Below are positions 1,065 to 24,758 of a stretch of 64,000 bases of DNA, in pieces. The stretch comes from Bombyx mori. Taxonomy: Eukaryota > Arthropoda > Insecta > Lepidoptera > Bombycidae. The DNA lies in the NCBI RefSeq assembly GCF_030269925.1, contig NC_085124.1, forward strand, positions 5,394,001-5,458,000, in the 5' to 3' direction. The notes under the pieces were generated by a model. That model was not told the DNA's origin and ran no database searches. It saw only the letters and a list, made by a program, of their open reading frames with translations. Within the stretch, counting starts at the first letter, position 1; each line of letters opens with the position of its first letter. The translations under genes were made by a program, and so were the position numbers.

Positions 1065-1230
1065 CACTGGCAGCTTCGATGTTGGCGAAAGCGAAACCCT
1101 TGCTGAACCGGACTTTGGTGATGGGCGTCTTGGTGTCCAGCACGAGATTCCTGGAGGCGTCACGTTGTCCACAACAGGCGTGCGCAAATGATGTACTGGC
1201 GCTGTGCGTGTTCACTCTCTCGTAGTACAC
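1065..1230 (-). CDS. TMEM151: TMEM151-like membrane protein, exon D
   Basis: This exon is about 166 bp, phase 0 in and phase 1 out. The acceptor is TTCGTTCGCCAG. The first codons, VYYERVNTHSAS, continue exon C exactly as in the family (TTTQ|VY.ERVNTH). Then come a CG..D.S.....L pattern (CCGQRDASRNLVL) and the core KVRFSKGFAFANIEAAS, matching the family's R.RF.K.F.FA..EAE. The donor is taken as G|GTAACA at 1064-1063; an alternative donor three bases earlier (CCA|GTGG) cannot be excluded. A Helitron begins six bases into the intron. The family continues after this point with a segment around QRARFF, and no exon for it is visible in bases 1-595, so the remaining exons lie outside the window. Confidence 0.92.
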
Positions 1231-1348
1231 CTGGCGAACGAAATGTATCCAGTGGGACTATATATGCAGGGTCCATTATAAACCGATTGGCTTAAAGCAA
1301 AATAAAAAAAACTTACGAAAATCTTTTGTATTCTGTAAAATATATTTT

Positions 1349-1662
1349 TTTATTTTTTATTGCTTAGGTGGATGGATGAGCTCACAGCCCACCTGATGTT
1401 AAGTGGTTACTGGAGCCCATAGACATCTACAACGTAAATGCGCCACCCACCTCGAGATATAAGTTCTAAGGTCTCACTATAGTCACAACGGCTACCCCAC
1501 CCTTCGAACCGAAACGCATTACTGCTTCACGGCGGAAATAGGCGGGGTGGTGGTACCTACCCGTGCGGACTCCCAAGAGGTCCTACCATCAGTGATTACG
1601 CAAATTAGAATTTTGCGGGTTTGGTTTTTATTACACGATGTTATTCCTACACCGTAAAAATC
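1349..1662 (-). mobile_element. Bm1 SINE, most of the body
   Basis: A minus-strand copy from the A-tail through the ggtcctaccatca block and on into the region linking body and tRNA head (ttttgcgggtttgg, then tattacacgatgttatt). The tRNA-like head is lost where a second, oppositely oriented Bm1 fragment starts. Confidence 0.88.
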
Positions 1663-1678
1663 ATTGGTAGCTGGCTTT

Positions 1679-1797
1679 TGGAAGCCGTCGGATAAGACGT
1701 CCAGCATTTAAGTTGTAGATGTCTATGGGCTCCGGTAACCAGTTAACAACAAATGAGCTGTGAGCTCATCCACATATCTAAGCAATAAAATATATCG
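1679..1797 (+). mobile_element. Bm1 SINE fragment with internal deletion
   Basis: Part of the tRNA-like head (ggataagacgtcc) is joined directly to the 3' end of the body (ttgtagatgtctatgggctcc to aagcaataaaa). It sits head to head with the preceding minus-strand copy, forming an inverted pair. Confidence 0.78.
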
Positions 1798-2050
1798 AAT
1801 ACTCGAGGAGAAATTGGAAATCTATTGCGGATTAGGCAAGGCATATAATATCCTTGAGACATTAATCTATATTCGAATACTGTGAGGGTTTGTCGTATCA
1901 ATGTTACCCCGGTGAGAGATACCCTTATTGAAGCAATACAATTAAATAGGCGTAGTGATACGGTCACGAACTATTTGTGAACCGATGTTGAGACAGATAA
2001 TCGAATTCATCAAAATTAAATATGGAATATCTACAAATTGTGAATTTCGA

Positions 2051-2489
2051 AGTCGTCGTGGCCTAAAGGATAAGACGTCCGGTGCATTCGTATCTAGCGA
2101 TGCACCGGTGTTCGAATCCCGCAGGCGGGTACCAATTTTTCTAATGAAATACGTACTTAACAAATGTTCACGATTGACTTCCACGGTGAAGGAATAACAT
2201 CGTGTAATAAAAATCAAGCCGGCAAAATTATAATTTGCGTAATTACTGGTGGTAGGACCTCTTGTGAGTCCGCACGGGTAGGTACCACCGCCCCGCCTAT
2301 TTCTGCCGTGAAGCAGTAACGCGTTTCGGTTTGAAGGGTGGGGCAGCCGTTATAACTATACTGAGACCTTAGAACTTATATCTCAAGGTGTGTGGCGCAT
2401 TTACGCTGTAGATGTCTATGGGCTCCAGTAACCACTTAACACCAGGTGGGCTGTGAGCTCGTCCACACATTTAAGCAATAAAAAAATAA
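2051..2489 (+). mobile_element. Full-length Bm1 SINE with tRNA-like head
   Basis: This is the most complete Bm1 in the window, about 440 bp. The head carries an A box (tggcctaaagga, 2059-2070) and a B box (gtgttcgaatcc, 2108-2119) of the internal RNA polymerase III promoter. The body follows with the tactggtggtaggacctc block, and the 3' end reads aagcaataaaaaaataaaa. It lies between exons D and C of the TMEM151 gene. It is presumably transcribable by Pol III, but mobilisation needs LINE proteins from elsewhere. Confidence 0.93.
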
Positions 2490-2834
2490 AAATGCACCTT
2501 TCTTTGCAAAATCTCAATATTTCTTTAAATTCACGTCCAAAAGAAGGACGGGATTTAAAAAAAGAAAACGGAACTAAATTAATTTTATTATTTAAATCAT
2601 CACGACACTGTATACTATTGCTTGCTCATCTTTGTATCTCAGTTTAAATTCAACATTGAATAAAGATCGCATCGGGAGACCAATTATGAAATTCCAACAC
2701 CTCATCGACCCGAAGAGTTCTTGTTCACCGGCAAATTAATCTTTCAGCCAATTACAGTGCCGTTAAAATAGAAATCAAGTCGAGGCAAAGTTAGAATTTA
2801 AATTCGCATCGAAATTTAGATTTACTCGAAGCTA

Positions 2835-2936
<102 letters not shown>

Positions 2937-2994
2937 TCAAAATGTCTTTCAAATCGATAAAATGTTATCAAACGGTTGGTCACTTTTAAACTGT

Positions 2995-3270
2995 TATAGA
3001 TGATGACCGAGCTTTTGATAACGCCATCTTGTTGTTTCTTAATACGGTTAGTTGCCCTCAATTAAGAAAAATAGTATTATTATTCACCAATAGATGTCGG
3101 AAAGAGTTGATTATTGAAAACACGAATAAAACAACATTTTCTGAAAATAAATCGTAGCTAGATCGATTTATCGCCCCCGAAATCCCCTGTATACTAAATT
3201 TTATGCAAATCGTTGGAGCCGTTTCCGAGATTCAGATTATATATATACAAGAATTGCTCGTTTAAAGGTA
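2995..3270 (+). repeat. Dispersed repeat, copy 1 (matches 35845-36150 inverted)
   Basis: The stretch ending gttggagccgtttccgagat...gaattgctcgtttaaagg is present again in opposite orientation near 36 kb, with substitutions and small indels over about 270 bp. The class was not determined; the AT-rich end resembles ends of short lepidopteran retroposons. Confidence 0.7.
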
Positions 3271-4226
3271 TAAGATTTCTCCGCTGAAAAAAAAATGCGA
3301 ACATATCACCACAGCGGATGGCAAAAAGGTATTTTAAAACTGGTAAAATCGAAAAAACTTTTATCGTGCGATTATGGCCTCATTTTTAAAATAGATAAAT
3401 TTTAATTATTATTTTGGAGACCTAAACAGTATTTCCAATGCTATCATGTCTTTAAAGGTTTCGAATTTTAAATTTAAAAACGCAATTGGAGATGCATGTC
3501 GCATGTATTTCGTAATAATGTCTCACTATGTTTCAACTTGAACGCAGGAACATTCCCATTTTAATTAATGCCCGCGATTCACACCCGCAGGTGGCGGCGC
3601 TATGGAAAAGCTCCCTTCGTGTATGCCGCAAGTATTTGACAAATAATAACAGAAGGGGAATCCCCCGCGATTTAATTGGAAACTCGTAGGGAATTCCATG
3701 AATTTTGTGTGCGAGCTGAAAAATTTGCTTTATAATTTACATTTTTTTGAGAAAGCTTCAGTCAGCTCTTTGTTAAATTATACTAATGTCGTGAAAGTTC
3801 TTAGTTTTGTGCCATATAGACGGACTAGCTCTTTTGAATTTTATATAACGACTATCCCATCTAATAAAGCCGAAACTCATGATCACTTCACGGCAAAAAT
3901 AGCTAGAGCATTGGCACAAACCAGTTTTTTTGTCTACCTATCTGTTTATAGAGTGAAGCAGCTATTTTAGCTTCATCATGGCCAGTGGACGAGCTGAACC
4001 AAATCCAACTCGTGCGAATAAAACAATCGAACACCCAAAATAGCAGTTGAGTTGAATGGCAGTAGCTAGACCTATGAGTTACAACCATACGGCCCAAGTT
4101 GAATATGCGACAATATTCTGTCCAGAACTAATTTCACCAAAGAGTAAGATAGAAATTTCATAATTTAAATGGAATTTGACTTAATGTCGACTTAATTTCG
4201 ATGGCATTCGCGTAGTTATCTGTGTA
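3271..4226. other. Intronic sequence without recognised features
   Basis: AT-rich, with only short unsupported open frames (longest about 90 codons, no recognisable motif). Nothing else is seen. Confidence 0.5.
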
Positions 4227-4252
4227 GTAGTAGTAGTAGTAGTAGTATTTAG
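4227..4252. repeat. (AGT)n microsatellite
   Basis: Eight tandem gta/agt triplets. Confidence 0.9.
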
Positions 4253-4442
4253 TAAACTCAACAGATAACCTAAATAAAATAAAAATAAAACTTTGGTCTG
4301 TGAACTCGGCAACATCTGTAGACCAACTTCTTTGGCAATATAGATCTATTTTTTCTACTTATTGTTGTAGATAATGATTTAGAATAGTTTTAAATTTTCT
4401 TTGTTACATTTTACATAAATAGGCCTTACTTTATTATACATA

Positions 4443-5575
4443 GGCGGCACTGAAAATTTCGGGAATTAACGAAGTGACACAACATTAATATTTAAAAATG
4501 TATTTATTGCTTTTCGAAGTATTCTCCGCGAAATTTGACACATTTTTCCATACGATGGAACCAATCATTGAAGCAACCATTCCATTCGGAAGTTGGGGTC
4601 TCCAAAATGGCCGTTTTGTAGGCGTCCACAGCTTCTTCAGGTGATGAAAATCTCTGTCCACGCAATTTATTCTTTATTTTAGGGAAAGTATAGAAATCAT
4701 TAGGGCTTAGGTCGGGGCTGTACGGCGAATGGTCTAATAATACTATGTTCTCTTGCTCTAAAAACTCTTTTGTTCTGTGCGCGGTGTGAGAACTCGCATT
4801 GTCCACCATTTTTTTGGCAACACTCCGTGAACGAACAATTTTTGTTGGCTTTAACTCATTTTCGAACACCCAAACTCGTGACTGGTTTTTTTGTTTCGGG
4901 TTCGTACGCGTATATCCAGGATTCGTCACCTGATACAATGTTGTATACAGTATTAGAGGATCCTGCGTGGAATCTTTTGAGAGTTCTGACGCACCAAGTA
5001 ACGCGAGCCGCTTTTTGCTCTTCACAGAGCGAATGCGGTATCCATCGGGAAAACAACTTTTTTACACCTAATTGTTCATGCAAGATTATTTGTATTTGAC
5101 TCATGCCAATGTCTAAAGTTGCCTGAATTTCGCGGTATGTCACATGTCGATCTTCCTCAATCAGCTTACGCACAGCATCAACGTTTTCTTGGGTGACTGC
5201 AGTTTTTGGACGACCTTGACGGGGATCATCACTGAGCTTGACACGTCCACGTTGAAACTCAGCAAACCAGCGATAAATTGTGGTTTTGGATGGGGCTTCA
5301 TCACCAAATGCAGAAATCATCCGGTCAACGCACTGTTTTTGTGTTAAACCACTTCGAAAGTCATAATAAATCATCGCTCTTGAATTTTCTCGAGTCAATT
5401 CCATTTTCTCAACGACTAAACAAGTTTGACAAAACCTCGCGACAAGACCGAGAATCTTTTTTTAAATAAATAAATGGTATTCGATTTTTAAAACCAAGGA
5501 GTTTTCAATTAAAAAGATTTTAATATGACAGGAACAATGGAAATATTCCATTCCCGATACTTTTAGTGCAGCCTC
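4443..5575 (-). mobile_element. mariner transposon, defective copy
   Basis: The element is bounded by imperfect terminal inverted repeats (GGCGGCACTGAAAATTTCGGG at the left; right end GGCTGCACTAAAAGTATCGGG in reverse), next to TA dinucleotides. The interior is one minus-strand transposase gene that is broken twice. A second copy of the family begins at 63217. It lies in the intron between exons B and C of the TMEM151 gene. Confidence 0.88.
4504..5404 (-). pseudogene. mariner transposase, frameshifted and internally deleted
   Basis: The N-terminal frame begins MELTRENSRAMIYYDFRSG, holds the paired helix-turn-helix DNA-binding region, and reaches GDESWIYAYEPETK with the first catalytic aspartate. 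A run of seven A instead of six then shifts the frame. The C-terminal frame resumes at SRVWVFENELKPTK and has the motifs DNASSHTAH and SPDLSPNDFY, giving the D34D spacing of true mariners. Compared with the copy near 63.9 kb, about 50 codons between KKMV and DNASSH are missing. The protein cannot be active. Confidence 0.92.
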
Positions 5576-5576
5576 T

Positions 5577-5917
5577 ATAACACTATTATTTAACGGGTTC
5601 TTGCCAAGGGCTTAATAATTCCTGATAATTCGGCGATGTAGCAAACGCAAATGATCATATTAGTGGTATCTATTTAAAACCTTAGATTTTAAGGACTACA
5701 TATTTAAATCTAAAAAACTTCTGATTATAGGTTTCACACCCAGACTTTTCTATTTCAACGTGGACTTTGATTTAATTTGAAAAAATATAATTTTGTATAC
5801 CGAAGAACAGAACTATATTAACAATATTATTTTATTTATCAGTGAAAGATTTATCACGCAAGCTGCTTCTTGAATGTATAGATTCCTGGGATTATAAATT
5901 GGGGTTTCGGGGCGTGA
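5577..5917. other. Sequence between mariner and LINE
   Basis: AT-rich, no gene or recognised repeat seen. Confidence 0.5.
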
Positions 5918-6753
5918 TCACTTTCAAATTCAAATTCAAATTCAAATTCAAATTCAAAATCATTTATTTCAACTTGGATGTCATCAAAAACACACTTGTT
6001 GAATGTCAAAATGTAAAAGAAAATGTTAACTCTACCACCGGTTCCAAAAAAGCCACAGTCCTGAGAAGAACCGGCGAAACAAACTCAGCGGGCTTTTTTA
6101 TGTATTTTCTCAACTATTTTCTTCTTTTTTTTTTTAAACAAGAAAACATATTTACAGTATACAAAAAGACAAGTCAAAAAAATACAATTCAAATAAATAA
6201 TAATAATAATGAAAAATGAAAAGGCCAGGAGCGAACGCCTCATTCCCACGTAGTGCCATCTAGTAAAAAATCCTTAACTTTATAATATGCCTTGTTGCAC
6301 AAACGTTCCTTGACAGTTTTCTTAAATCTATGAACAGGTAGTAGTTGAACGTTTTGTGGGATCTTGTTGAAAAGTTGTACACCCAGCCCCCTGAAAGAGT
6401 TGCTTATTTTCTTAATTCGAGCCGCCGGCAACGCAAGCCTATGTTTGTTCCTAGTGTTCACATTATGCAAATCGCAGACTCTGGGGAATTCTACAATGTT
6501 TTTACGCACGTACAATAAATTTTCAAAAATGTATTGGGACGCTAAAGTTAGAATTTTGATTTCCTTAAACTTGTCCCTCAAGGATTCCCTCGGGTGCATA
6601 TTATAAATAGCACAAATAGCCCTCTTCTGCAGGATGAAAATTGTTTCGACATCGGCAGCATTGCCCCACAGCAAAATGCCATAGGACATAACACTATGAA
6701 AATAACTGAAATAAACTAGACGTGCCGTATCTTCATCAGTATACGTTCGTATT
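5918..6753 (-). mobile_element. 5'-truncated LINE (CR1/Jockey group)
   Basis: The 3' end is a run of (TTTGAA) repeats (5918-5966 on the plus strand as attcaa units), a known tail style for non-LTR elements of this kind. Upstream are the 3' UTR and the C-terminal coding part. The 5' truncation is near 6753. Confidence 0.85.
6240..6750 (-). pseudogene. LINE reverse transcriptase, C-terminal fragment
   Basis: The frame reads TDEDTARLVYFSYFHSVMSY, then GILLWGNAADVETIFILQKRAI, typical of the region just after the reverse transcriptase fingers and thumb in CR1/Jockey-type LINEs. It ends with a basic C-terminus, FRGLGVQLFNKIPQNV..., with stop near 6240. No polymerase active-site motif is included. 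The rest of the protein was lost by 5' truncation. Confidence 0.88.
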
Positions 6754-7137
6754 TTTTTTTACCGCAAACGCTGCAGATTTATATATTGCGCGCTTTATAT
6801 ATTGGATGACGGATACATTTTATGTTAAATGTAAATTTATAGTGAAGAGATTTTAGAACGCGTATCCGATTCTGATGAATTACCAAACGTAATACAGTCG
6901 GATTAAGAGCCGATATTTAACTCATCAAATAAAAGCTATCTAAGTGCTGACTGACAAAAGTAGATGAAATTAATTGTGTTATTCGCGCAAGGGTTTTTTT
7001 ATTTAAGAGTAAAGCTTCTAGGTAAACAAAAGGTATGTTGTCAATGGAGACGGATTCTGTTCTGGACCTCAATGATATTGTTTTCGTTTGTTAACCAAGA
7101 AAATAAAGATGCGGCGACAGAGGGTTCCAAATACCAC
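6754..7137. other. Unassigned sequence
   Basis: AT-rich; no supported feature. Confidence 0.5.
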
Positions 7138-7320
7138 TTATTTATTTATTTATTTATTTAATCAACAATGTTTCAACAGCACTTAACTAGACACAGGGTA
7201 CAGAGGATGTTTTTCACAAACATGAGCCAATTAAAGAAAAACATTATGTTTCCAAAAAATGTTAACATGATTAATGAACACAGGTAGTCCAACTAAGGTA
7301 TAGGTAAGGCAATTAAATAG
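7138..7320 (-). mobile_element. Possible LINE 3' end with (TAAA)n tail
   Basis: On the minus strand a 3' UTR-like stretch ends in several TAAA units (ttta repeats at 7138-7161). This resembles the tails of CR1/Jockey LINEs, but no coding part is seen, so the assignment is tentative. Confidence 0.35.
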
Positions 7321-7856
7321 GTAGATAAATTTTGTCGAATGATAACTTGCAGAATAAGTTTGAATCTGATTGTGTTGTGTCGATGTGTGTAAGTGCGTGT
7401 AAGTGCGTGTGAGTGTATAAAGTGGTTGGTTTACATGGACGCTCAGTATGTGATATGTGACTTCATTCTCATTATAACAGTTAAGAAATTGTAGACGAGA
7501 ATATCGTTGGAGGTGTAGTAGAAGAGTTTGAGTTTCATCGCCGTCTCGCGATAATAACAAAGCCAAGAGCCGTTCTGCTTATTATACTAATCAATTTTGT
7601 AAAAAATGTTCATGTTAAGCTTTGAATTTTTTTTTATTTAAAAAACCACTGACACAGTCGCGACACTTCATGCAAATACACAGGACATCTTGCCCCTTAG
7701 GTATTGAATTTCCATGTCAATATTATCTCCTGGCAGTGGAATCCTCGTTGTGTTGTGATCATGAACTCAAGTAACCCCTTAACATGAAATGACCTAACCC
7801 GATCTGCCTATTATCTTAGCTAATAAATAAATGAATATAAAATATTCCTGACTCAC

Positions 7857-8060
7857 CAAACCCTTGGAGTGGCATTCCTCATTGCATGAACCCTTGCAGA
7901 TACTGCAGCCACGTCAACTCTCTTCGTCAGCTGGATCCTGGCAGTGCTGTGATAGCACTCGACCAAATAGACCAAATATAATAATAATACGAACGCAATA
8001 GGAATGTATGCGTATCCAACGTCGCAGGGTGACTCGCGTACCGTTCGCTTGATGGGGTGC
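7857..8060 (-). CDS. TMEM151: TMEM151-like membrane protein, exon B (second transmembrane helix)
   Basis: This 204-bp exon has acceptor TTTTCTCTCCATCAG and consensus donor GTGAGT, phase 2 in and 2 out. The 67 whole codons contain the family motif SPCDVGYAYIP, a hydrophobic helix IPIAFVLLLYLVYLV, the conserved VEC after it, and then a hydrophilic stretch with RVDVAAVSARV and ATPRVW. In vertebrate TMEM151 the same order is seen (SPC..GY.YIPLAF, YLVECWHC, RVDV, ATP..WW). The final TG joins the first G of exon C to give tryptophan, followed by a second tryptophan, which recreates the family's WWKA motif across the junction. That agreement is strong evidence that the exons belong together. The intron to exon A is about 13.6 kb and holds the Tc1 and RTE elements. 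Confidence 0.95.
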
Positions 8061-8177
8061 CTGATGGAGAGAAAACTAATTTAGACGTAAAATATAATAG
8101 CAATGTTTGTACACTTTTGATCAACACTAGCTATAGCCAAAATTTGGCTGAACTATTATAGATTATACACATTATAG

Positions 8178-8456
8178 GATCGTCGTTGCCTAAAGCATAA
8201 CAGGCTCGCTGTAGTTGTATTGGGCGATGTGTTTACCCTTTGTGTTCAAATCCCGCAAGCAAGTAGTATATTTTCTAAGAAAATGCGTACTTAACACGTG
8301 TTCTTAAACGAGTTTCAAGCTGAAGGAAAAACATTGACTATAAAATCAAACCCGCAATTTTATGGTATTGCATACATAGATATGTACCGGCATACTGCCT
8401 ATTTCTACTGTGAAATAATCATGTATTCTGCTTAAACAATTTTTGGGGGGGCAGTG
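8178..8456 (+). mobile_element. Old, degenerate Bm1 SINE
   Basis: The order tRNA-like head (cgtcgttgcctaaagcataa, ttcaaatcccgcaag), linker (gcgtacttaac, tcaaacccgcaattttat) and body start (gcctatttctactgtgaa) matches Bm1, with many substitutions and a deleted 3' end. Confidence 0.75.
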
Positions 8457-8479
8457 AAGTCGACTCATTCAAAAAATAA

Positions 8480-8849
8480 AAAGATGTGTGGTGTCGTGGG
8501 ACACCGGATAGGAACGAAGTTCCTTATTATAAAAATATTAATTTTATGTTTTATCCGAGGTATAAAGAAAATAAAACTGGAGGTTTCGCAACAACCCATG
8601 GTCATTCGGTAACGTGCGAACTTATTTTGGTACACTTCATTCACTATTGTTTGCATAAGAGTTAGTGTATTGCGCAAACGAACGCTCTGAGATCGTGGTC
8701 AATGAATGATAAAAAATATGTTAGTTTTTGTACGTTATTACGAAGTTAAGTCGTACACTTTGTGCATTACTAATAAAAATATTACGTTACGGACGTTTTT
8801 TTCCCGGTTAGGGTACCCCTCCGCATCGTTCCATAAGGAACTTCGTTCC
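8480..8849 (-). repeat. MITE-like dispersed repeat, copy 1
   Basis: A 370-bp unit shared with 41476-41825 and 54775-55146. Both ends carry the near-palindrome GGAACGAAGTTCCTTAT in inverted orientation, and one side has an extra hairpin sequence gtgtcgtgggacac. Two divergent open frames (about 70 and 50 codons) recur among copies. The family is not one I can name. An R1-clade LINE is inserted 12 bp downstream. Confidence 0.75.
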
Positions 8850-8860
8850 AAAACATTTAT

Positions 8861-8868
8861 AACTAAAC

Positions 8869-8870
<2 letters not shown>
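8861..8870. repeat. Target-site duplication, left side of R1-clade LINE
   Basis: aactaaacgg (extendable by tt) recurs at 10517-10526 on the other side of the LINE. Confidence 0.9.
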
Positions 8871-8901
<31 letters not shown>

Positions 8902-10516
8902 TCAGGAGGAAATCGCCGGACTTCCGCCCTTCACTGGGGATGAAGGGCGGGGCATGTCGGAGTCGAACCGACTAAAACCTCCTGTCTCTCAACAACCAAC
9001 GTCCAAACCTCGCATGAGACAAAACTCATGAAAAGGCAAAAGGGGGGAAAGTGAAGCGTTTAGTGCGGAGCACATCTCTCCCATCACCCTCCCCCTCGGG
9101 ACGCCGGACTGGCGGTCGTCGGCGCCACGACCACCAGCCCTCTCGGTCGGCAGGCTATCCGAAGCCCGCCTAGATGGCGCCGGTTAGAATGGTCTATCCT
9201 ACGGAATACCCCGCTGGGTCAGAACCAGCGTGGGTTGAGGATAGCCGGCCTTCCATCACCCGGATGCTCATGCATAAAACGCGTGCAGAGCAGCTTGCAC
9301 GTCGTCTTCTTAGGCCCCCTTCGCCGGTCCCCAGGCCGACATGTGAGGGGACCCGAAACACTTAGAGGGCCAGGGCTTGGGCGATATCCGCCTCCCTGGC
9401 CCCCGCTCGACGGCGGCGGGCCTGTGCGTCTCTCACGCGCCCCGCCGCCTCCTTCTGCGAGATGGTGCACTCGCAGAAGTCGAGCATCGCCTTCCACGAC
9501 TCGTCGTCACCGAGCATCGATGCCACAACACTCGGCAACGACAAGTCGTTTCCTATTTTTGCGACGAGGACACGGCGCCACCCCTCCCATGCGGGGCAGG
9601 CGACGAGCGTGTGCTCCGCCGTGTCCAAGTCGCAACCACAATGGTGGCACTCTGCCGTCGGCTCGGCTCGGATCCGGTGCAGGAACTCACCGAAGCAACC
9701 ATGCCCAGTGAGCACCTGCGTGAGCCGGAAAGTGAGGCGTCCTCTGTCACGATTCACCCAGTTCACAAGAACCGGGCGAATCGCCTCGACGGTCCTACGA
9801 CCAGCCGAAGGATCGGCCAGCCGTCTAGACCATGACTCCAGTACGGACCGCCGAGATTGGGCCCTCCGCGCTCTGACCACACTGGGGCTGGGACGCGCCA
9901 CGCCCCGTACACGAAGGTCAGCCCGCCACTGATAGTCAGCAGCGAGCGCCTCCGCCTCCAGGACCCAAGGCGGCGTCCCAGCCAGTACACACGCCGCCTC
10001 GAAAGAGATGGTGCGATAACCACGGATGACCCTGACCGCGATGGTGCGTTGCGGCCGTTGCAGCAGCTTCGCTACCCCCACGGCCAGGGACTGGCCCCAC
10101 ACGGGCGCCCCGTATAGGGCCATTGATCGCACCACCCCTGTATAGAGACGGCGCGTCACCTGGTCAGGCCCCCCAACATTGGGAAGGAGCCGGCTTAACG
10201 CGCCGGCCACCCCCAACAAACGAGGGACCAGATTCTGAAAGTGAGCACGGAAGGTCCAACGACTGTCTAGAATGAGGCCGAGGTACTTCAACTGCACCCC
10301 GACCCCGATACGGACGCCTCCAACCACGATATGGGCATCGACAGGTGGCACTCTCCGGGGCCTGTGGAACCACATGGCCTCGGATTTACTGAGCGCCACG
10401 TCGAGGCCCAATCTCCTGATTTTGCCGACGACATGCGCCACCCCAGCCGTAGCAAGACGGGCAGACTCAGCAAAACTCCCCCCCCGGGCCACGACCAACG
10501 TGTCGTCTGCGTAACA
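8871..10516 (-). mobile_element. R1-clade non-LTR retrotransposon, 5'-truncated
   Basis: A GC-rich island in AT-rich DNA, with a 30-base poly(A) tail (T run at 8871-8900) and a 3' UTR of about 460 bp. A perfect 10-bp (12 with tt) target-site duplication flanks it. Only the end of the reverse transcriptase and the C-terminal zinc knuckle are retained. A 3' UTR fragment of the same family is at 22083-22345. The family belongs with R1/TRAS/SART-type elements by its C-terminal organisation; a finer name cannot be given. Confidence 0.93.
9362..10516 (-). pseudogene. R1-clade reverse transcriptase, C-terminal 384 residues
   Basis: The element-derived frame starts at CYADD, so only the active-site motif YADD and what follows remain. 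After it come the thumb region (LKYLGLILDSRW), a connection region (GAPVWGQSL), the conserved AGTPPW..EAEALAADY block, and a zinc knuckle CHHCGCDLDTAEHTLVAC near residues 315-335. The stop is at 9362. The frame is uninterrupted. An apparent start at 10546 adds ten residues that come from host DNA and the target-site duplication. Without the upstream polymerase motifs the protein cannot function. Confidence 0.93.
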
Positions 10517-10526
10517 AACTAAACGG
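10517..10526. repeat. Target-site duplication, right side of R1-clade LINE
   Basis: aactaaacgg, identical to 8861-8870. Confidence 0.9.
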
Positions 10527-10528
10527 TT

Positions 10529-11780: not shown

Positions 11781-11879
11781 CGCTTCCACGAAGTGTTATT
11801 TTGGATAATGGCATTAGGGCAATTTGGTAGTCCGAATGGATCTTATTTTCCTGCTTGTTTTTCAAAAGACTGATATAGA

Positions 11880-12080
11880 CGGATGAACGAGCTCATGATC
11901 CATTGACACTATGAGAACGTCCTCCTCACCCACATTGACATATGAAGTCTTAGTCAAAATTGTGCCAGACTCTCCCAATCTGCTAATCCACTAATAATTA
12001 TAATACATGACAGCTTTGTTACCACCTCGTGCAGACTCCATAATGAGCCGTAAACTCACATTAAATACTACCTTATGGCA
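11880..12080 (-). mobile_element. Very degenerate Bm1-like fragment
   Basis: Scattered matches in Bm1 order (gatgaacgagctca, then cacccacattgacatatgaagtctta, then cgtgcagactc). Low similarity makes this tentative. Confidence 0.4.
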
Positions 12081-12612
12081 GTTTTTCGAAACATAATAAT
12101 AATGAATACTGACTTATTCGACTATAGTAAACATTTATAAATATATCTAAATATACCTAAATTTATTAAGCAGTTCTGCTTATTCAGATATGTATTTTAA
12201 TCTGACAAAGCCAAAATTAGTTGTGACCTCCGTTCCAAACATTGCTTTAAAGCCGATTCGCAATACGGTGAAATCAATTAATCGAGTTTTCATTTTCAAT
12301 CACACGGTAAAATGTTCGTATTTTATCTTCAGGGCCTTTTTTTCATTCTGGCCAGCCCTAAAATATATCTCCAAAAATGTTTGCCTCGTGCTACGCATTA
12401 AGGAACAACACTGTAATCCAAATCGTCATAAACGTGATTCCGAATAAAATTATCATTAAGCATATCCATTACAATTAATTAATAAAACAGAAAAATCTAA
12501 AATAACTTTAGTTAGCTCTAATGTTATCGTTATTAAAGTAAACATAAGGTATAGCGATGAAAATTTCTGTTTGAATTAAACTTATCTGTTATTACTATTC
12601 TAATCGTTGTAT
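12081..12612. other. Intronic sequence without recognised features
   Basis: Contains an unsupported 85-codon open frame; nothing recognisable. Confidence 0.45.
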
Positions 12613-12725
12613 TCATGGTGGTGGTGGACAGGGGAAAGTGGAAAAACATCTTAAGATTGATGAAGCTCATGGGTGATGGTGGTCACGACCCTCAGACATG
12701 AGGAACACGATTCGAGGAGGAGGAG
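12613..12725 (+). mobile_element. LINE 3' end fragment (RTE-like C-terminus)
   Basis: ggtcacgaccctcag followed by an atgagga and a gaggaggag tail matches the ends at 33180 and 57750, where it closes a WR/WKK-rich RTE-like C-terminus. Confidence 0.6.
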
Positions 12726-12729
12726 TTAT

Positions 12730-13050
12730 TACAGACAAGCTTAGATTATGAAGTATGGATTATTGTCCATACTCATAGTATGGGAAAGCGAGTTTATTTA
12801 TAACTTTTATCGTCACAATTGCTCAGCATTTTCACAGGTTCAGAAAAGCATGTATGTATTCAAAAAGAAATACCATTCCCAGGATAAAATAAATTTTATA
12901 CGTTATGGTGACCAAAACCTCACGTAAAAGCTATATAAAAAAAATCTAGCTGTCCATTACACATTCTCTTAAATACATCTAAAGTTTGATTTGCTTATTC
13001 TAGCATTTGACAATATTATTACTCGTAGACACAAATGTATTTTTATAAGT
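12730..13050. other. Unassigned sequence
   Basis: Nothing recognised. Confidence 0.5.
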
Positions 13051-13464
13051 ATAGAGGTCCCGCAGTAGTCGAAATTCGACTATAGTTAATTGGAATTGTA
13101 AGTTTGTACACTATTATGATTGTATTTTATACTTCTATAATCACAAATTCCGCCAAGACTACACTATAAAAAATATTAACAAAGACAAACAATATTTAAT
13201 CTCAATTTGACAACAGACGTCAAGAACAAAAGTTTGACAATAAATAGTATGCATGCGTGTGTGCGTCAAATACATGGTATGTAGTGTGTGTAATGTTTTT
13301 TTTATTGATTTAATGTATCTTTTATGCATTATTTTAAAAAGATATTAGCATTGTGCACTTCTTCTCTATATTCTCTATAAGTGTGGAAAATTTCATACTC
13401 CTCGGTCCGCGCAATTTTCGTAAAAAGGGATACAAAGTTTTTGCTTCGCGTATTAATATATAGA
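13051..13464 (-). mobile_element. Non-autonomous Helitron (Lep1-like), copy 2
   Basis: Same family as 596-1058. The minus strand begins TCTATATATTAATACG. The 3' subterminal hairpin TAGTCGAAATTCGACTA (13066-13082) is a perfect 8-bp stem with a one-base loop, followed by the short terminal stretch ending in CTAT-type bases. About 414 bp, no coding capacity. Confidence 0.85.
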
Positions 13465-14214
13465 TTATTAACGCGAAAAATAGCTAGCAAAATTATAAAC
13501 AGTTAGCCTATGTTATATGCAAAATCATTGTTCTCTTCTATACGGTAAATGTAAATTTCCTCTGCGTACATAAGTCGTTAAATGCCTCACAAGACATTCC
13601 TATTTTATGTCTCAAGAAATGTTTTAAGTCTGTTATCTGGATTAAAAAACCATGTAAGCGCGGTGCGCACAAGGCAATAATGGCTTGGTATCCTCCACAT
13701 TTACCCATTCACTGTCTTTTTAACTGAGTTCCAAAAAAGGGGGAATGTTCTCAATTCGACTGTATTTTTTATGGGTTCTAAAACTTTTTTCTAGGTGAAC
13801 TGATTTTGATGATTATTTTTTAATCGAAATCTGGCGATTCCGATGTGGTATTATTTTTATCAATTGTATCAAGTTCCGATTAGTAGTTTTTAAGTTATGC
13901 CTAATAATTCATATTTCATTGACTTTGATTACATTTTTGGCACTCTTAATTCATTTTATTGAAGTGATAAGTATTATTGTTGTCCAATTTTTTAAATAAC
14001 AATCTTCAAAAAGGTTACAATAAATAAAAATGGGAAAATACTAGATATTCGCATAACATAACTTTTATTTAAGCGAAATGTATATTCTGTTTTCATTAAA
14101 AAATAATATCGTTATTTGGGCGTTCCTTATACGCAGAAATTATTAAAAATATTTGTTTTAATTGATTAAAAGACATACGTAGTTTGTGTATCATATGATA
14201 ATAAGCAGTAAGGA
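13465..14214. other. Intronic sequence; part may be an old repeat
   Basis: Near 13780-13900 the words aggtgaa, gattttgatgatt and agttccgatt recur around 52565-52660. Otherwise nothing is seen. Confidence 0.4.
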
Positions 14215-14525
14215 CTTTTTTTTTTCCTACCCAAGCTGATAGCCTTTAGAGGCTACTTCAGCGTAACCGTGGCTAGTAGGTGAGCTCACGGGGCTCAAAC
14301 CTGATGACGATGCTAACACGAACCCTAGCAAGGGCCGTGCTTCGCAGAATCTACCACCGGATCGGAAACGCGACCCACTGAGAAGATCCGGCGAGAAACT
14401 CAGTGGGCTGTGTCTGAGAGCTAGTTTACTCGTCGAGCCCTTCGTCGCAAGCGACGGGTTCGACGAGAACGGTGACCGGTGCTTGAAGTACCTAAAAGCA
14501 CCGTTAGTGGAAGTGAGGACCTTGA
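14215..14525 (-). mobile_element. Jockey-like LINE 3' UTR with conserved hairpin
   Basis: A minus-strand 3' UTR ending in a poly(A) (T run at 14217-14225). It holds the stem CCCACTGAG...CTCAGTGGG (about 14374-14407). The same UTR occurs at 27880, 34185, 37725 and, joined to a LINE C-terminal frame, at 42490. This copy contains UTR only. Confidence 0.75.
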
Positions 14526-14922
14526 TATCAATTGAATCCTAAATACGATCTAGTCTCGTTATGACTTCGAATAGATGAGGGTCGTAACAAAATTGATTTT
14601 ATATGAAAAAACGGGCGCAAATATTTCTTCATAACAGAGATGTATGTAATATTGACACAAAAATGTACACAGAGAACAGAAATATCAATACGATTCACAT
14701 ATGTACACACATTCACGATTCAACAAATGTACTCTAATTAGAGTTGAGAAAAACTACACAAAGTTTAAATCTACTGGTTTGGAATTTACTTATTGAATAA
14801 AGTTAAAATATTACTAATTAGGAATTGCATTTTTTTTTACACGATACACAGCTATCAAATCTACAAATGTTAAGAAATTAGAGAAAGAAGCAATGAATTC
14901 TACACAATTGTATGTACATACA

Positions 14923-14924
14923 TA
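14923..14924. repeat. TA target duplication, left end of Tc1-like element
   Basis: TA flanks the terminal repeat; its partner is at 16640-16641. Confidence 0.9.
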
Positions 14925-16639
14925 CAGTCGTGGTCAACTAATTAGGGACATTCAAGATAGTGAAGGGCTATAACCGGTTATGTACATTTAAATATAAAAC
15001 CCTATTGATTTCTCAGCACCTATTATTTGCATAATGTGGTCCGATTATTATGCTATAAATGGCTGTAAATAAAAGATTTAATAAATAGAAAAAGTATTTA
15101 ATATCAAAGATTAAACATGTATTAAATATTAAGGTACAATTCTGTAGTGGACATTTAATTAAGGACAGTAAAGTATAATGAAAAATACAGTTACACAAAA
15201 CTTATAATCTTCAGTGTTATAATATCTTTAACAGCTCCATTTTATTACGTGTTAAATCAGTACCCAGTAGCAAAACCTTTGTTAGTAATTACCGCTTGAC
15301 ACCGATGTGGCATAGACATTATCAGTTTTTGACATGTTTCGACAGGAATGTTTGCCCATGCCTCACAAAAAGCTTCATGTAGTTCATCCAAATTTGTATT
15401 ACGATAAGTGGCAACTTTTTTCTTGATTTCGTGCCAAAGGTGCTCAATTGGGTTGAGGTCCGGGCTATTTGCTGACCACTCTAGCACCGATACAAACTGA
15501 CTGGTAAGAAACGACTTGACTGAATGGGCGGTATGTTTCGGGTCGTTATCCTGCTGAAACGCCCATATAATAGGGAGATGCTCCTCAGCATAGGGAAGCA
15601 TAGTTTCTTCCAATATTGCCTTGTATTGATGTTGGTCTAAGTTACCCTGAACATTCCTCACAGGTCCCACTCCACGTCCAGAAAATGAACCCCATATTTT
15701 AATGTTTCCACCGCCATGTTTCACCTGTTTTTTTGTGAATCTTGGATTCGTTTCCGCTTTTACAGGACGCCGTACATATTGCCTTCCATCTGAAGAAATC
15801 AAATTAACCTTGGTCTCGTCAGAAAAAAGTACATGTTGCCATTGGGCGAAGGTCCAATGTCCATATTTACGTGCAAATGGCAAACGAGCATTTCTATGTT
15901 CTTTCTTCAACAACGGTACTTTGCGAGCCACTCTTCCGAACAACCCTGCTTCTACCAAACGTCGTCGAATGGTCCTCGCAGATACACCGGCTCTTTCGTT
16001 TGCCCCAAACACTTCGTGTTTAATTAAAATAAAGCCTAGAAACGGATCTTTCTTAGCTAACCTGGTTATCATTCTATCTGCTTGCGGAGTCGTTTTTCTC
16101 GATATTTTTGTTCTGGACACATTTAAAGCTGTGTTATAGCGCTTGAAATGTTGCACTGCATTGCATACCATAGTTTTTGAACAATTTAAATGTTGTGCTA
16201 TCCTTCGGTATGACCAACCACGCTCGACAAACTTCATGATAATTTTTCGTAGTGTTGGATCGCAACTTTTATTTTTGCCCATTTTTCTTCAAAATAATTC
16301 TCAAAACTTAAAATAAAAAATCTGGATTGCCGCCAAAACGACCACTAAACAATAAGAAAAGAAACAAAAAAGTATTAAAATTCCAATTTAGAAATTAGAA
16401 CGCATTACCTCAGTGTCCCTAATTAAATGGCCAGCCAGCATTCTTTGAACCAATAGCACTATGATATTGTATCAGCTATACTGTAAAGAGGTTTAATGTT
16501 TAAGAAGTTGTTATTGTTTGTATAATCGCGCACATAAATGACTAATTACACTTACATGTAAAAGATATGGAATATTGCTAAGACTCGTTGGAAAATAAAA
16601 AAAATATTCACAATTTGGCTAATTAGTTGACCACGACTG
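14925..16639 (-). mobile_element. Tc1-like DNA transposon, apparently complete
   Basis: The 1,715-bp element has perfect outer inverted repeats CAGTCGTGGTCAACTAATTAG at both ends and TA target duplications. A second, related sequence lies about 200 bp inside each end (left 15147-15168 gtggacatttaattaagga; right 16411-16433, reversed). It has the same orientation as its own outer repeat, giving the IR/DR architecture of some Tc1 families. One full transposase gene fills the interior. Confidence 0.95.
15257..16282 (-). CDS. Tc1-like transposase, intact 341 residues
   Basis: This enzyme cuts and inserts the element at TA. The start is MGKNKSCDPTLRK. Residues about 10-110 form two helix-turn-helix DNA-binding domains (SYRRIAQHLNCSKTMV; GVSARTIRRRLVEAGL). 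The catalytic core has the DD34E triad: D in FSDETKVNL, D in QQDNDPKHTA, and E in PDLNPIEHLW. The length is the usual 340 or so, with no stop or frameshift. It ends NKGFATGY. The DNA-binding domains, catalytic residues and both ends are present, so this copy may encode active enzyme or be a recent arrival. The gene is in the TMEM151 intron, in the same orientation. Confidence 0.96.
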   Translation of the reverse strand: MGKNKSCDPTLRKIIMKFVERGWSYRRIAQHLNCSKTMVCNAVQHFKRYNTALNVSRTKISRKTTPQADRMITRLAKKDPFLGFILIKHEVFGANERAGVSARTIRRRLVEAGLFGRVARKVPLLKKEHRNARLPFARKYGHWTFAQWQHVLFSDETKVNLISSDGRQYVRRPVKAETNPRFTKKQVKHGGGNIKIWGSFSGRGVGPVRNVQGNLDQHQYKAILEETMLPYAEEHLPIIWAFQQDNDPKHTAHSVKSFLTSQFVSVLEWSANSPDLNPIEHLWHEIKKKVATYRNTNLDELHEAFCEAWANIPVETCQKLIMSMPHRCQAVITNKGFATGY

Positions 16640-16641
16640 TA

Positions 16642-17530
16642 TATGGCCTCAGTTTTCACTATCATCACAAAAACAATACTTATCAGATTTTCAATGAATT
16701 TTTAATTTTTTATATGACAATTGAATTTTCTGATTCCCAATTTACTTTTCAATTGATTGAAATTAATTTGTTGGATGATTAAATATATCACTTTTAGAAA
16801 TAAGACCTAAGGTTCTAAATAGCGCATATTACTTTAAGTCGTACGGGTACCATCTTCCACCCTATTTCTATCGGGGTAAGACAGTCTTTATCACAATGCT
16901 AATAATATTTTTACCTCATGTCTTACGGTGAGAGACGGCATTGTTTTTCTACCTTATATAAGGTTCAATAGCCCCTTTATTATTATATACTATATTAATT
17001 AACCGGGTGAGCTCGGACTATCGACAACAAAAAGTCAAGAAGACAACAATAGCCCTTAAATAACATTTAATTAATAACAGGATACAATGTTTTCCGTGAA
17101 ATCATCAACAAGTTTCGAGGATTTTGAGGATACAAGATAAAGCTTAAGTAAGAAAGGACAATTGAATTATTTCCTTTGTAAAATGCTTCGCAAACTTATT
17201 CATATTCGAATTACTTACTCTGAGAATCTTGAACTTTCCGCGAGTGAGTTTCATCTCAGATGTGCGGGTTACATTGAGGATTTGTATCTTACGAAAACTT
17301 TTCAAAGGAAATAAATTGGGATCTATAATTTATAATCACGGCTTTCATGAGAGAAGTGAAGTACTGACTTTTATGCTTTTTTCTTTTGTTTTGTATTTAA
17401 TTATCTCCACTAGACTCCGTATTATAATGCCAGAGACGAGCTGAATTCTCTGGAATAATTTAGTTAAGCTCTGGTCATTGTTTTTTTCGCCCGAAATGAA
17501 AACAATAAAAAAAGTCGAACTCTGATAAGT
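16642..17530. other. Intronic sequence, one decayed Bm1 trace
   Basis: At 16838-17010 a few words (cgggtaccatcttccaccctatttct, tcatgtcttacggtg) follow plus-strand Bm1 order. The rest is unassigned AT-rich DNA. Confidence 0.4.
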
Positions 17531-17665
17531 TTTTTTTCTTTTTTTTTATTGCCCTTGTAGGCAGACGAGCATACGGCTCACCTGATAGTGAGTGGTTACC
17601 GTCGCCCATGGACTTCAGCAATGCCAGTGGCAGAGCCAAGCCGCTGCCTACCGCAAAAGTTTTCG
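17531..17665 (-). mobile_element. LINE 3' UTR fragment, tail to RLW-type C-terminus family
   Basis: A reversed poly(A) then attgcccttgtaggcagacgagcat...gccaagccgctgcctacc. The same UTR is joined to a coding end (LPRTIRLWNELP) at 27000 and 60020. Confidence 0.8.
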
Positions 17666-17920
17666 AATAAGCGAAATTATTAAGAGGAATATTTTTTTAT
17701 ACATATCAAACTTTAAACTGTTTTAAAAGAATGGTGAAGGAACACTACTTATCTGCTTAGTGCTGTTTGTTTGCATCATCATTTATTATTTCCATACTGT
17801 TGATATATTATGTGTATGTAAGTATATTAGTATGTATTGTATGTATTGTATGTAAGTATGTATATTGGTATATAATTGGTATATATTTCATATTATATGT
17901 AAACGGTATATATTTTGTTT

Positions 17921-17930
17921 ATTGTATGTA
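17921..17930. repeat. Target-site duplication, left of RTE LINE
   Basis: attgtatgta, repeated at 20785-20794. The neighbourhood has other attgtatgta copies, but these two sit exactly at the element borders. Confidence 0.8.
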
Positions 17931-20768
17931 CTGGCCCTGGTGACATACAACGTGCGCACTTTGAGGTTGGACGAGAAGCTAATAGAGCTGGAAGAAGAAA
18001 TGAACAAGTTGCGCTGGGACGTTATTGGTTTATCGGAGATCCGAAGAGAGGGGGAGGATACGAAAACCTTACAGTCCGGCCACTTGTTCTACTGCCGGGA
18101 GGGAGAACAGAAGTCCCAAGGTGGTGTTGGGTTTATCGTCCACAAATCTCTCATAAACAACATTGTGGCCATCGAGAGTGTGTCGAGTAGGGTAGTATAC
18201 CTTGTCCTCAAAATCTCAAAGCGGTATTCGCTGAAGATTGTACAGGTATACGCCCCATCAACGTCACATCCAGACGATGAAGTGGAAGCTACGTATGAGG
18301 ACATTAGTAGGGCCATACGTAACTCCCAATCACACTTTACCGTTGTTATGGGAGATTTCAATGCAAAACTGGGCCGTAGAGGCGATGATGAGTTGAAAGT
18401 GGGGCCATTTGGATTTGGGCAGCGGAATCCCAGAGGACAGATGCTGGCGGACTTTATGGAGAAGGAAGGACTCTTTATGATGAATTCTTTCTTCAAGAAG
18501 CCGCCACAACGGAAATGGACCTGGTTGAGTCCCGACGGTGTAACAAGAAATGAAATCGACTTCATCATGAGCACCAACAGACAGATATTCAACGATGTCT
18601 CTGTGATCAACAGTGTTAAAACAGGAAGTGATCACCGAATCGTCAGAGGCATGTTGAATATCAATGTCAGACTGGAAAGATCGCGTCTGATGAAGTCAAC
18701 GCTTCGACCGTCGAATGCACAAATCCAAAACCCCGAGAGCTTTCAACTCGAATTGGCTAATCGCTCCGAATGGCTAAACAGCTGCGCATCAGTGGACGAT
18801 GTAAACAGCAGGCTGGTAGAGACTGTCCGTACGGTAGGGTCCAAATTTTTCAAAACCCACCGTAAGAATAGACCTCAGAAACTATCCGACCGCACCCGAA
18901 ACCTCATGGCTAGTCGACGTTTGATGACGCTCCAAACTTCGGAGGACGCTGAGTCATATAGGCAACTCAATAGACATATCATGAAGTCCTTGCGACACGA
19001 CCTACGCTCCTTTAATACTCAGCGTATCAAAGAGACGATTGAGCGAAACCAAGGCTCTAAAGTGTTCGCAAGAGACGCTTCTATTGGGCAAAGCCAGCTG
19101 ACGAAGCTGAAGACCGAAGATGGACGTGTAACGTCGAATAAGTCAGAGGTCCTGCGGGAGATAGAGAGGTTCTACATGCAGCTGTTTACCTCGGTCTCAA
19201 CTGAACCGCAAGGTTTAGCTGCAGACCCTAGAGCCAAGCTAACCCGACACTACACCGAAGACATCCCAGACATCAGCCTGTACGAGATTAGGATGGCTCT
19301 CAAACAGCTTAAGAATAACAAGGCACCGGGCGAGGATGGAATTACTACGGAGCTTCTGAAAGCGGGCGGGACGCCTGTACTGAAAGTCCTTCAGAAGCTC
19401 TTCAATTCCTCTTTGCTCGATGGAAAACCGCCACAGGCATGGAGCAGGGGTGTTGTGATCCTGTTCTTCAAAAAAGGTGACAAAACCTTATTGAAGAACT
19501 ATAGGCCCATAGCACTGCTGAGCCATGTCTACAAGCTGTTCTCGAGAGTCATCACGAAGCGTCTCGAACACAGGTTTGATGACTTCCAGCCTACCGAACA
19601 AGCCGGTTTCCGAAAAGGCTACAGTACCATAGACCACATACATACGCTGCGGCAGATTGTACAGAAGACCGAAGAGTACAATCGGCCATTATGCTTAGCG
19701 TTTGTGGACTATGAGAAAGCCTTTGATTCCGTCGAAACATGGGCGGTCCTTAGATCTCTCCAGCGGTGCCGTATTGAACACCGGTACATCGAAGTATTGA
19801 AGTGTTTGTATAATAACGCCACCATGTCAGTCCGAGTACAGGAGCATTGCACGAAGGAAATCCCTGTAAAAAGAGGAGTGAGACAGGGAGATGTGATATC
19901 TCCGAAACTGTTTATCACTGCTCTGGAGGATTCCTTCAAGCTTCTGGAATGGCAAGGACTTGGCATCAATATTAACGGCGAATACATCACTCATCTTCGG
20001 TTTGCCGATGACATCGTGGTCATGGCAGAGTCGCTGGAAGATTTAGGGCGTATGCTCGGTGACCTCAGTAGGGTTTCTCAACAAGTGGGTCTTAAAATGA
20101 ACATGGACAAAACAAAAATCATGTACAATGTCCATGTTGCACCCACCATAGTTACTGTTGGGAGCTCTACTCTTGAAGTTGTTGACGAATATATATACCT
20201 AGGACAGGCAGTCCGATTAGGTAGGTCCAACTTTGAGAGAGAGGTCAGTAGACGGATCCAACTCGGCTGGGCAGCGTTCGGTAAACTGCACAACGTCTTC
20301 TCGTCCAAAATACCTCAGTGCCTTAAGACAAAGGCGTACAACCAATGTGTGTTACCAGTGATGACTTACGGCTCGGAGACGTGGTGCTTCACTAGGGATC
20401 TTTTTAGAAGGCTCAAAGTCGCGCAGCGAGCTATGGAGAGGGCTATGCTCGGCATTTCTCTACGTGATCGAATCCGAAATGAGGAGATCCGTAGAAGAAC
20501 GAAGGTTGCTGACATAGCCCGTAGAATTAGTGAACTGAAGTGGCAATGGGCCGGCCACATAGCACGAAGAGAGGACGGTCGATGGGGCAGAAAGATCCTG
20601 GAGTGGCGACCACGTACTGGCAAGCGCAGTGTGGGACGGCCACCTACTAGATGGACCGACGACCTAGTAAAAAGCGCTGGGTCTCGTTGGATGCAGGTGG
20701 CAATGAACCGGTCGCACTGGAAATCTATTGGAGAGGCCTATGTTCAGCAGTGGACGGCGATAGGCTGA
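17931..20768 (+). CDS. RTE endonuclease/reverse transcriptase, 945 codons
   Basis: The protein nicks DNA and copies its own RNA at the nick. Element codons start LALVTYNVRTL. The apurinic-type endonuclease has its asparagine (YNVRT), glutamate (GLSEIRREG), VYAPS, GDFNA and SDHRI motifs in the first 240 residues. The reverse transcriptase follows at about 430-740: KAPGEDGI, YRPIALLS, AGFRKGYSTIDH, DYEKAFDSV, GVRQGDVISP and active site RFADDIVVMAES. The C-terminus has WAGHIARRED and GRPPTRWTDD. There is no stop or frameshift. The nearest upstream ATG (17865) lies in host DNA and adds 22 unrelated residues, so the native start was probably lost by slight 5' truncation. Confidence 0.95.
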   Translation: MALVTYNVRTLRLDEKLIELEEEMNKLRWDVIGLSEIRREGEDTKTLQSGHLFYCREGEQKSQGGVGFIVHKSLINNIVAIESVSSRVVYLVLKISKRYSLKIVQVYAPSTSHPDDEVEATYEDISRAIRNSQSHFTVVMGDFNAKLGRRGDDELKVGPFGFGQRNPRGQMLADFMEKEGLFMMNSFFKKPPQRKWTWLSPDGVTRNEIDFIMSTNRQIFNDVSVINSVKTGSDHRIVRGMLNINVRLERSRLMKSTLRPSNAQIQNPESFQLELANRSEWLNSCASVDDVNSRLVETVRTVGSKFFKTHRKNRPQKLSDRTRNLMASRRLMTLQTSEDAESYRQLNRHIMKSLRHDLRSFNTQRIKETIERNQGSKVFARDASIGQSQLTKLKTEDGRVTSNKSEVLREIERFYMQLFTSVSTEPQGLAADPRAKLTRHYTEDIPDISLYEIRMALKQLKNNKAPGEDGITTELLKAGGTPVLKVLQKLFNSSLLDGKPPQAWSRGVVILFFKKGDKTLLKNYRPIALLSHVYKLFSRVITKRLEHRFDDFQPTEQAGFRKGYSTIDHIHTLRQIVQKTEEYNRPLCLAFVDYEKAFDSVETWAVLRSLQRCRIEHRYIEVLKCLYNNATMSVRVQEHCTKEIPVKRGVRQGDVISPKLFITALEDSFKLLEWQGLGININGEYITHLRFADDIVVMAESLEDLGRMLGDLSRVSQQVGLKMNMDKTKIMYNVHVAPTIVTVGSSTLEVVDEYIYLGQAVRLGRSNFEREVSRRIQLGWAAFGKLHNVFSSKIPQCLKTKAYNQCVLPVMTYGSETWCFTRDLFRRLKVAQRAMERAMLGISLRDRIRNEEIRRRTKVADIARRISELKWQWAGHIARREDGRWGRKILEWRPRTGKRSVGRPPTRWTDDLVKSAGSRWMQVAMNRSHWKSIGEAYVQQWTAIG

Positions 20769-20784
20769 AATGATGATGATGATG
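17931..20784 (+). mobile_element. RTE-clade LINE, nearly full coding length
   Basis: The 2,854-bp insertion is bounded by a perfect 10-bp duplication. It ends in an (ATG) repeat tail (20769-20784), the usual end of RTE elements, with almost no 3' UTR. The 5' end starts inside the coding frame, just before the endonuclease. Confidence 0.93.
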
Positions 20785-20794
20785 ATTGTATGTA
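20785..20794. repeat. Target-site duplication, right of RTE LINE
   Basis: attgtatgta, the partner of 17921-17930. Confidence 0.8.
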
Positions 20795-21479
20795 TATATT
20801 TTCTATAATGTATTATCTATAGTACACCGCAACATACCTGCAATATTTTTTATATTTTCCAGAATTTCTATAAATTAAACGGTTGTCTGGAAGCTGCCGG
20901 TATCTGCTTTTTTTTGATTGTTTTTTGAATGTAAATTGTGTTTTGGTGTGCAATAAAGTGTATTCTCTCTCTCTCTCTCTCTCTCTCAATTTTTACCAGT
21001 AAATACAAGAGGGTATAAATTTAAATTAATCAAAGACACATGTATAAGCTCAAAAACTCAGATAACATCCATGAGTACAATTCTGTGTAAATAGGTATAT
21101 ACAAACGGTGTTGCTCGTAAATACAAATGGGTTTTCGATATTTTTATTATTGTTATAAAAATAATAGATTAAGTATGCGCGTGTGAAACTATGACAAGTT
21201 AATCCAGTAATATATTCAGTCTCGCCACCTGACTAAAACATAATAAATCTGTAGTATAAAAACACGCTGAAAATTATCTTTCAATTTCAGATCTATATAC
21301 ATAAATCATATATTTTATGTAATAAATAAGTATTTATTTATTTGTGAATGATCATCAGGACTTACTAATAAAAATTTAAAATAAACACAATTTACTGTTG
21401 CAACTCTAATCAAATGTAATTACAGAATGCCATAAAAAGAAGAAAAAAAACTAGTAGTTTATATAATATAAACCGGGTT
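20795..21479. other. Intronic sequence with a (CT)n microsatellite
   Basis: A run of about eleven CT units is at 20966-20987. No other feature. Confidence 0.7.
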
Positions 21480-21560
21480 CAATGGCGTACATTGGACGAG
21501 ACCTACATATGTATATCCAGCAGTGGAAAGCTGTGGGTCGACGATGATCACAGCCAAACC
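21480..21560 (+). mobile_element. RTE LINE 3' end fragment
   Basis: The words tggacgagacctacat...atccagcagtggaaagctgtggg match the last codons of RTE elements (here compare VQQWTAIG at 20750), followed by a gatgat tail. Confidence 0.65.
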
Positions 21561-21685
21561 AATAAGAACACATACGGAATACTACGGACGATTTTGTTCC
21601 GCGAGTATGACAACTGTACCTACAGTATTCGAAATATCGGTAATAATATTAGAATGGCAATAATTAAATTAGTAATAATACTTAC

Positions 21686-21834
21686 TTGCTGAAATCGATG
21701 AGGTCTCGATCGATCTCAGCTGTATTGCACCAAGCGACGGAGCCTAGGCACCCCGCGATCATGAGGGTCAGCATGAAGCACTTCCAATTACCTTCGCGGC
21801 GTAACACTCCTCCCAAACTCTGCTGTCGTGGACG
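21686..21834 (-). CDS. TMEM151: TMEM151-like membrane protein, exon A (first transmembrane helix)
   Basis: This is a 149-bp internal exon. A pyrimidine-rich acceptor ending TTCCTTCACAG precedes it and the consensus donor GTAAGT follows, with phase 0 in and phase 2 out. All 49 codons are open. They read RPRQQSLGGVLRREGNWKC, then a hydrophobic helix FMLTLMIAGCLGSVAWC, then an acidic stretch NTAEIDRDL. The QQSL..L.RE..WKC..LTL.I.GCLG.VAWC pattern is the N-terminal signature of TMEM151 proteins. Basic residues before the helix suggest the N-terminus is cytoplasmic. The family has two membrane helices; vertebrate TMEM151A is neuronal and linked to paroxysmal kinesigenic dyskinesia, but its biochemical role is not established. 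The leftover AA joins the first base of exon B to make a lysine codon. GC content is well above the flanking intron. Confidence 0.93.
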
Positions 21835-24690: not shown

Positions 24691-24758
24691 TTACATTTAA
24701 TACCATCTATTGGCGATATTCAAATAATTCTACCACATAGTGTAAGAGAACAATTATT

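Follow-up and report, generated by a model that had tools for sequence, protein, structure and literature searches.

Which gene is encoded by four exons spread over 21 kb of transposon-rich silkmoth DNA, and is its transcript spliced in more than one way? The DNA analysed here, called the window throughout, comprises 64,000 nucleotides of Bombyx mori contig NC_085124.1 (positions 5,394,001 to 5,458,000), and an original prediction made from its letters had read these exons, on the minus strand, as a gene of the TMEM151 family. We are close to certain that exons A to D are four inner coding exons of a conserved silkmoth TMEM151 gene, with regard to both its identity and its exon structure. Their positions in the window are as follows; residue numbers are those of P0114, the transmembrane protein 151B-like of Bombyx mandarina (596 amino acids (aa); NCBI, UniRef).

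21686..21834, minus strand: coding exon A, residues 18-66 plus the first two bases of codon 67; encodes the first membrane helix; AG before and GT after.
7857..8060, minus strand: coding exon B, completes residue 67 and stops two bases into the first W of WWKA; encodes the second membrane helix.
2838..2922, minus strand: coding exon C, completes WWKA; its last residue is the Q of TTTQ.
1065..1230, minus strand: coding exon D, from VYYERVN to EAAS and one base of residue 219.

The joined translation of 201 residues matched the Pfam family TMEM151 (PF14857) with 297.2 bits (cut-off 27; E = 2.7e-88); a single alignment covers profile positions 2-201 of 428. Alignment with P0114 showed 201/201 identical residues (positions 18-218), with all three junctions spanned. 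The family assignment, which was to be checked by a protein or Pfam search with the joined translation, is thus borne out by both the profile match and the identical TMEM151B-like protein, and a chance join of four exons is ruled out by the same two results. Because the join is identical to P0114 over all 201 residues, the gene is already annotated in public databases and already known. No difference from P0114 was seen where the two were compared; its remaining 395 residues lie outside the window. Heliothis virescens P0112 is 98.5% identical to the join, so that aa identity alone is insufficient to fix the species. Full-length P0114 scored 477.1 bits against PF14857 and also covers the second half of the profile (positions 202-428), which had no match within the window. 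Of 28 columns invariant among 55 sequences, 21 fall within residues 18-218, the part encoded by exons A-D, and the join, which equals P0114 there, carries the residues that are invariant in the family, among them those around WWKA.

A protein search with the join revealed 84 proteins at E <= 0.001 among 328 candidates, vertebrate TMEM151B entries included. Since this search admits only subjects of 0.55-1.75 times the query length, it was repeated with longer proteins. Schistocerca P0001 detected 333 proteins among 7,998 scored candidates (best 120 of 333 listed) and P0114 detected 843 among 7,989 (best 120 of 843 listed).

All four exons are present on the minus strand at the predicted borders, each with AG on its 5' and GT on its 3' side. 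The exact fit of their phases, claimed at the outset, holds for the exon lengths of 149, 204, 85 and 166 bases (A to D). The ordered join is open over 201 codons in one frame and interrupted by stops in the other two, in agreement with the roughly 200 uninterrupted residues expected; the split codon between B and C recreates the WWKA motif (V-W-W-K-A), and the phase left over after exon D is compatible with E219 of P0114. The description of all acceptors and donors as good was only partly justified. By a simple consensus score, A and B have strong donors (within the top 1.5% and 1.6% of the minus-strand GT sites), whereas donors C and D are weaker (top 6.9% and 10.8%), and the acceptor tract of exon D is the poorest of the four exons with 56% pyrimidine. 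Exons A and C do lie under longer unrelated frames, as had been noticed: the own frame of A has 57 aa against 68 aa on the plus strand, and that of C 34 aa against 79 aa. No frame longer than their own covers exons B and D.

Nothing corresponding to residues 1-17 or 219-596 of P0114 was detected in the window; the gene therefore extends past both window ends, and the claim of a TMEM151 gene in four exons stands for family, borders and phases, but only for the inner coding part. Six short motifs from residues 1-17 had no match in the six frames of the 64-kb window, and ungapped scoring of these residues over the window reached at best 22 on the minus and 23 on the plus strand, against a self-score of 88. 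On these results a first coding exon inside the window was rejected, with the limit that an exon split by a further intron could escape both the motif and the ungapped search. Beyond residue 218, six motifs were without a match in the window, and four 20-residue pieces covering residues 219-298 scored at best 34 there, against self-scores of 98-121. A tblastn search of the window with whole P0114 gave nothing past residue 218 better than E = 6.7. Some alignments of distant homologues continued past the exon D donor (for example P0161 at 1233-790, 34% identity, gapped); as none came from P0114, they were taken as overextension and exons after D inside the window were rejected. From exon A to the high end of the window there are 42,166 bases. 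The first coding exon would thus lie upstream, and an intron of more than 42 kb probably follows it, provided that this exon is not itself broken up into smaller pieces; residues 219-596 would be encoded past the low end. If residues 1-17 form a single exon, exons A-D are coding exons 2-5.

Support of a different kind comes from P0206 and P0213 (source lgn), proteins of 619 and 624 residues encoded by contigs of 2,497 and 2,783 bases. Both contain all five joint strings tested, three of which are the window joints A-B, B-C and C-D. Being too short to hold introns of such size, the contigs probably represent spliced transcripts from a related moth. Several points weigh against our interpretation of the locus. 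Neither the first coding exon nor any exon after D came to light in the window, the simple consensus score rates donors C and D as weak, and P0114 is possibly a model computed from the same genome, in which case its agreement with the join would not prove the splicing independently; moreover, the contigs of P0206 and P0213 are from a related moth and are marked as transcripts by their length alone. We also considered a decayed TMEM151 duplicate (a pseudogene) in place of a working gene. In favour of such a copy are the many transposon remnants of the region and the fact that only part of the gene is seen; however, 201 codons without a stop, preserved splice sites, 201/201 identity to a database protein and separate introns make this explanation very improbable.

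The second part of the question concerns the acceptor of exon B. The DNA on its 5' side reads ATTAG-TTTTCTCTCCATCAG-GCACCCC, with two AGs exactly 15 bases apart, so that a second acceptor is available in frame:

8061..8075, minus strand: candidate 15-base 5' extension of exon B; second acceptor AG; five residues added in frame.

Use of the distal AG would change the translation from DFSKHPIKR to DFSNFLSIRHPIKR, with the frame kept. This second in-frame acceptor was absent from the original prediction. The A-B joint could be read by motif in 63 of the 252 proteins compared; 43 of these have the short form, 17 a five-residue insert and three a longer insert. The five-residue inserts are of the types FSNFVSVRH (11), FSSFMHLRN (2), LHTFFSRRF (2), LNTFMSIRY (1) and FSNFMSIRH (1), and the 17 entries belong to Spodoptera, Helicoverpa, Chrysodeixis, Arctia, Loxostege, Cydia and Vanessa. 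A number of these entries are isoforms or near-duplicates from a single species, and the majority have the look of computed models, so they do not represent 17 independent events. An AG exactly 15 bases upstream was present at 2/377 acceptor-like sites in the window, the exon B site being one of the two by its letters.

P0114, P0206 and P0213 all show the short form at the A-B joint, which speaks against use of the distal site. They suggest the alternative that the silkmoth makes the short form only and that the second AG is an unused part of the proximal pyrimidine tract; the short form in 43/63 homologues agrees with this, and the proximal acceptor requires a pyrimidine-rich tract anyway. 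Inserts of five residues at exactly the A-B joint in 17/63 entries from seven genera, several of them isoforms of one species, and the rarity of an AG at exactly this distance (2/377) argue in the opposite direction, and we regard a single silkmoth form as a serious but less favoured explanation. The database was clustered at 90% identity, and a second Bombyx form could hide in the two-member cluster of P0114. In the silkmoth, the AG 15 bases upstream can probably also serve as the acceptor of exon B. We consider it slightly more likely than not that TMEM151 of moths and butterflies occurs in two forms arising from a conserved acceptor pair 15 bases apart; the same pair of sites is present in the silkmoth, though the Bombyx protein found has one form only. 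Paired acceptors of TMEM151 were not described, by title or abstract start, among the matches listed from the open-licence literature.

A second insert of five residues (YSHLY after YMVA), encoded beyond the window, separates Spodoptera and Helicoverpa isoforms (P0211, P0212, P0213, P0222 and similar). It is present in the transcript-like P0213 and not in P0206.

In the course of its expression, the pre-mRNA would be spliced across three introns, two of which contain transposon-like sequences, some recognised as open reading frames (ORFs):

8061..21685, minus strand: intron A-B, 13,625 bases with the proximal acceptor; contains transposon-like ORFs at 17856-20768, 15257-16288 and 9362-10597.
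2923..7856, minus strand: intron B-C, 4,934 bases; contains a mariner-like transposase remnant.
1231..2837, minus strand: intron C-D, 1,607 bases.

Within intron A-B, the plus-strand frame at 17856-20768 has 970 codons with reverse transcriptase (RVT_1, E = 1.1e-34) and endonuclease (Exo_endo_phos, E = 1.5e-12) domains, and by this domain content is a non-long-terminal-repeat retroelement on the strand opposite to the TMEM151 gene. The minus-strand frame at 15257-16288 (343 codons) has Tc-type transposase domains (HTH_Tnp_Tc3_2, E = 4e-17; DDE_3, E = 1.3e-11). The mariner-like remnant of intron B-C (4504-5461, minus strand) consists of two overlapping frames with HTH_48 of the Mos1 type (E = 1.4e-10) and DDE_3 below the cut-off (E = 0.00024); another one, with Transposase_1 (E = 4.7e-19), lies at 50626-51261 on the plus strand. 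Two GC-rich reverse-transcriptase-like remnants, at 9362-10597 (minus strand) and 48749-49489, are alike by eye. The first has RVT_1 below the cut-off (E = 0.0012); for the second, a frame at 48761-49486 (plus strand) was compared with Pfam and had no match. The second adjoins a tandem array at 46800-48573 (373-base unit, 4.8 copies, 99% matches). A 36-base minisatellite with several open frames is found at 24750-25134 (10.7 copies, 95% matches), and position 31357-31440 on the plus strand gave a full-length match to Rfam mir-2807 (RF01912; 75.8 bits, cut-off 54), a Bombyx microRNA family. Taken with the protein identity to P0114, this match makes Bombyx the most likely source of the sequence.

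The two hydrophobic helices predicted earlier were recovered as hydropathy peaks at residues 36-54 (exon A) and 84-102 (exon B) of P0114. A third peak, at 272-290, is encoded outside the window; two to three membrane segments are expected of TMEM151, and two of them are encoded in the window. In the structure model of P0114, residues 33-55 and 85-102 form helices and 271-292 a kinked pair; strands, mostly of high confidence, occur between 131 and 306, and there is a long low-confidence tail. Foldseek comparison of two structure models with the PDB gave no significant match; no channel or enzyme fold was recognised for them, which excludes neither. The product would thus have about 596 residues and three hydrophobic segments, the last two of them separated by a conserved beta-rich region, and the distal acceptor of exon B, probably usable, would lengthen by five residues the short loop that links the first and second membrane helices.

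Vertebrate TMEM151A and TMEM151B belong to the same Pfam family, PF14857, as the silkmoth gene and are treated as three-span, brain-enriched, uncharacterised proteins in PMC6987440. According to PMC11250761, human TMEM151A has 468 residues, two putative membrane segments and two exons, in contrast to the four of the silkmoth coding exons that extend over about 21 kb. Human TMEM151A localises to the endoplasmic reticulum (ER) of COS-7 cells, the mouse TMEM151A gene is highly expressed in the central nervous system, loss-of-function variants of TMEM151A are a cause of paroxysmal kinesigenic dyskinesia, and attacks occurred in four of eight homozygous knock-out mice (PMC8437987). By analogy, the silkmoth product may be a neuronal ER membrane protein that helps to maintain normal excitability, perhaps by assisting in calcium handling as an accessory factor, and its beta-rich region would bind partners; we put this mechanism forward tentatively. 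The authors of PMC8437987 surmised that TMEM151A is a calcium channel of the ER or interacts with calcium sensors, from the ER location and the response of patients to carbamazepine. That TMEM151 is itself an ion channel, for instance for ER calcium, and not an accessory membrane protein, appears unlikely to us.

A silkworm TMEM151 gene has been named before. In PMC6070717, a TMEM151B-like protein of Bombyx mori (gi|827551130, 72.9 kDa) stands in a 17-entry table of BmYki3 co-precipitates from BmN cells; this listing alone is no proof of interaction. The entry shares its name with P0114, but because 72.9 kDa is listed there against 67.5 kDa computed for P0114, it is a longer model or another gene. 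No paper treating TMEM151 and Bombyx together was found in the open-licence literature.

The raw letters of a transposon-rich region sufficed for a correct gene model with three exact junctions. Loss of TMEM151A leads to a human movement disorder (PMC8437987), and an insect orthologue would offer a simple setting in which to study the mechanism. The paired acceptors pose a small, directly testable isoform question, the sole point here worth a small follow-up. If both sites are used, the pyrimidine tract of the proximal acceptor would double as the code for five loop residues between the first two membrane helices, and the two acceptors would vary an otherwise nearly unchanging protein.
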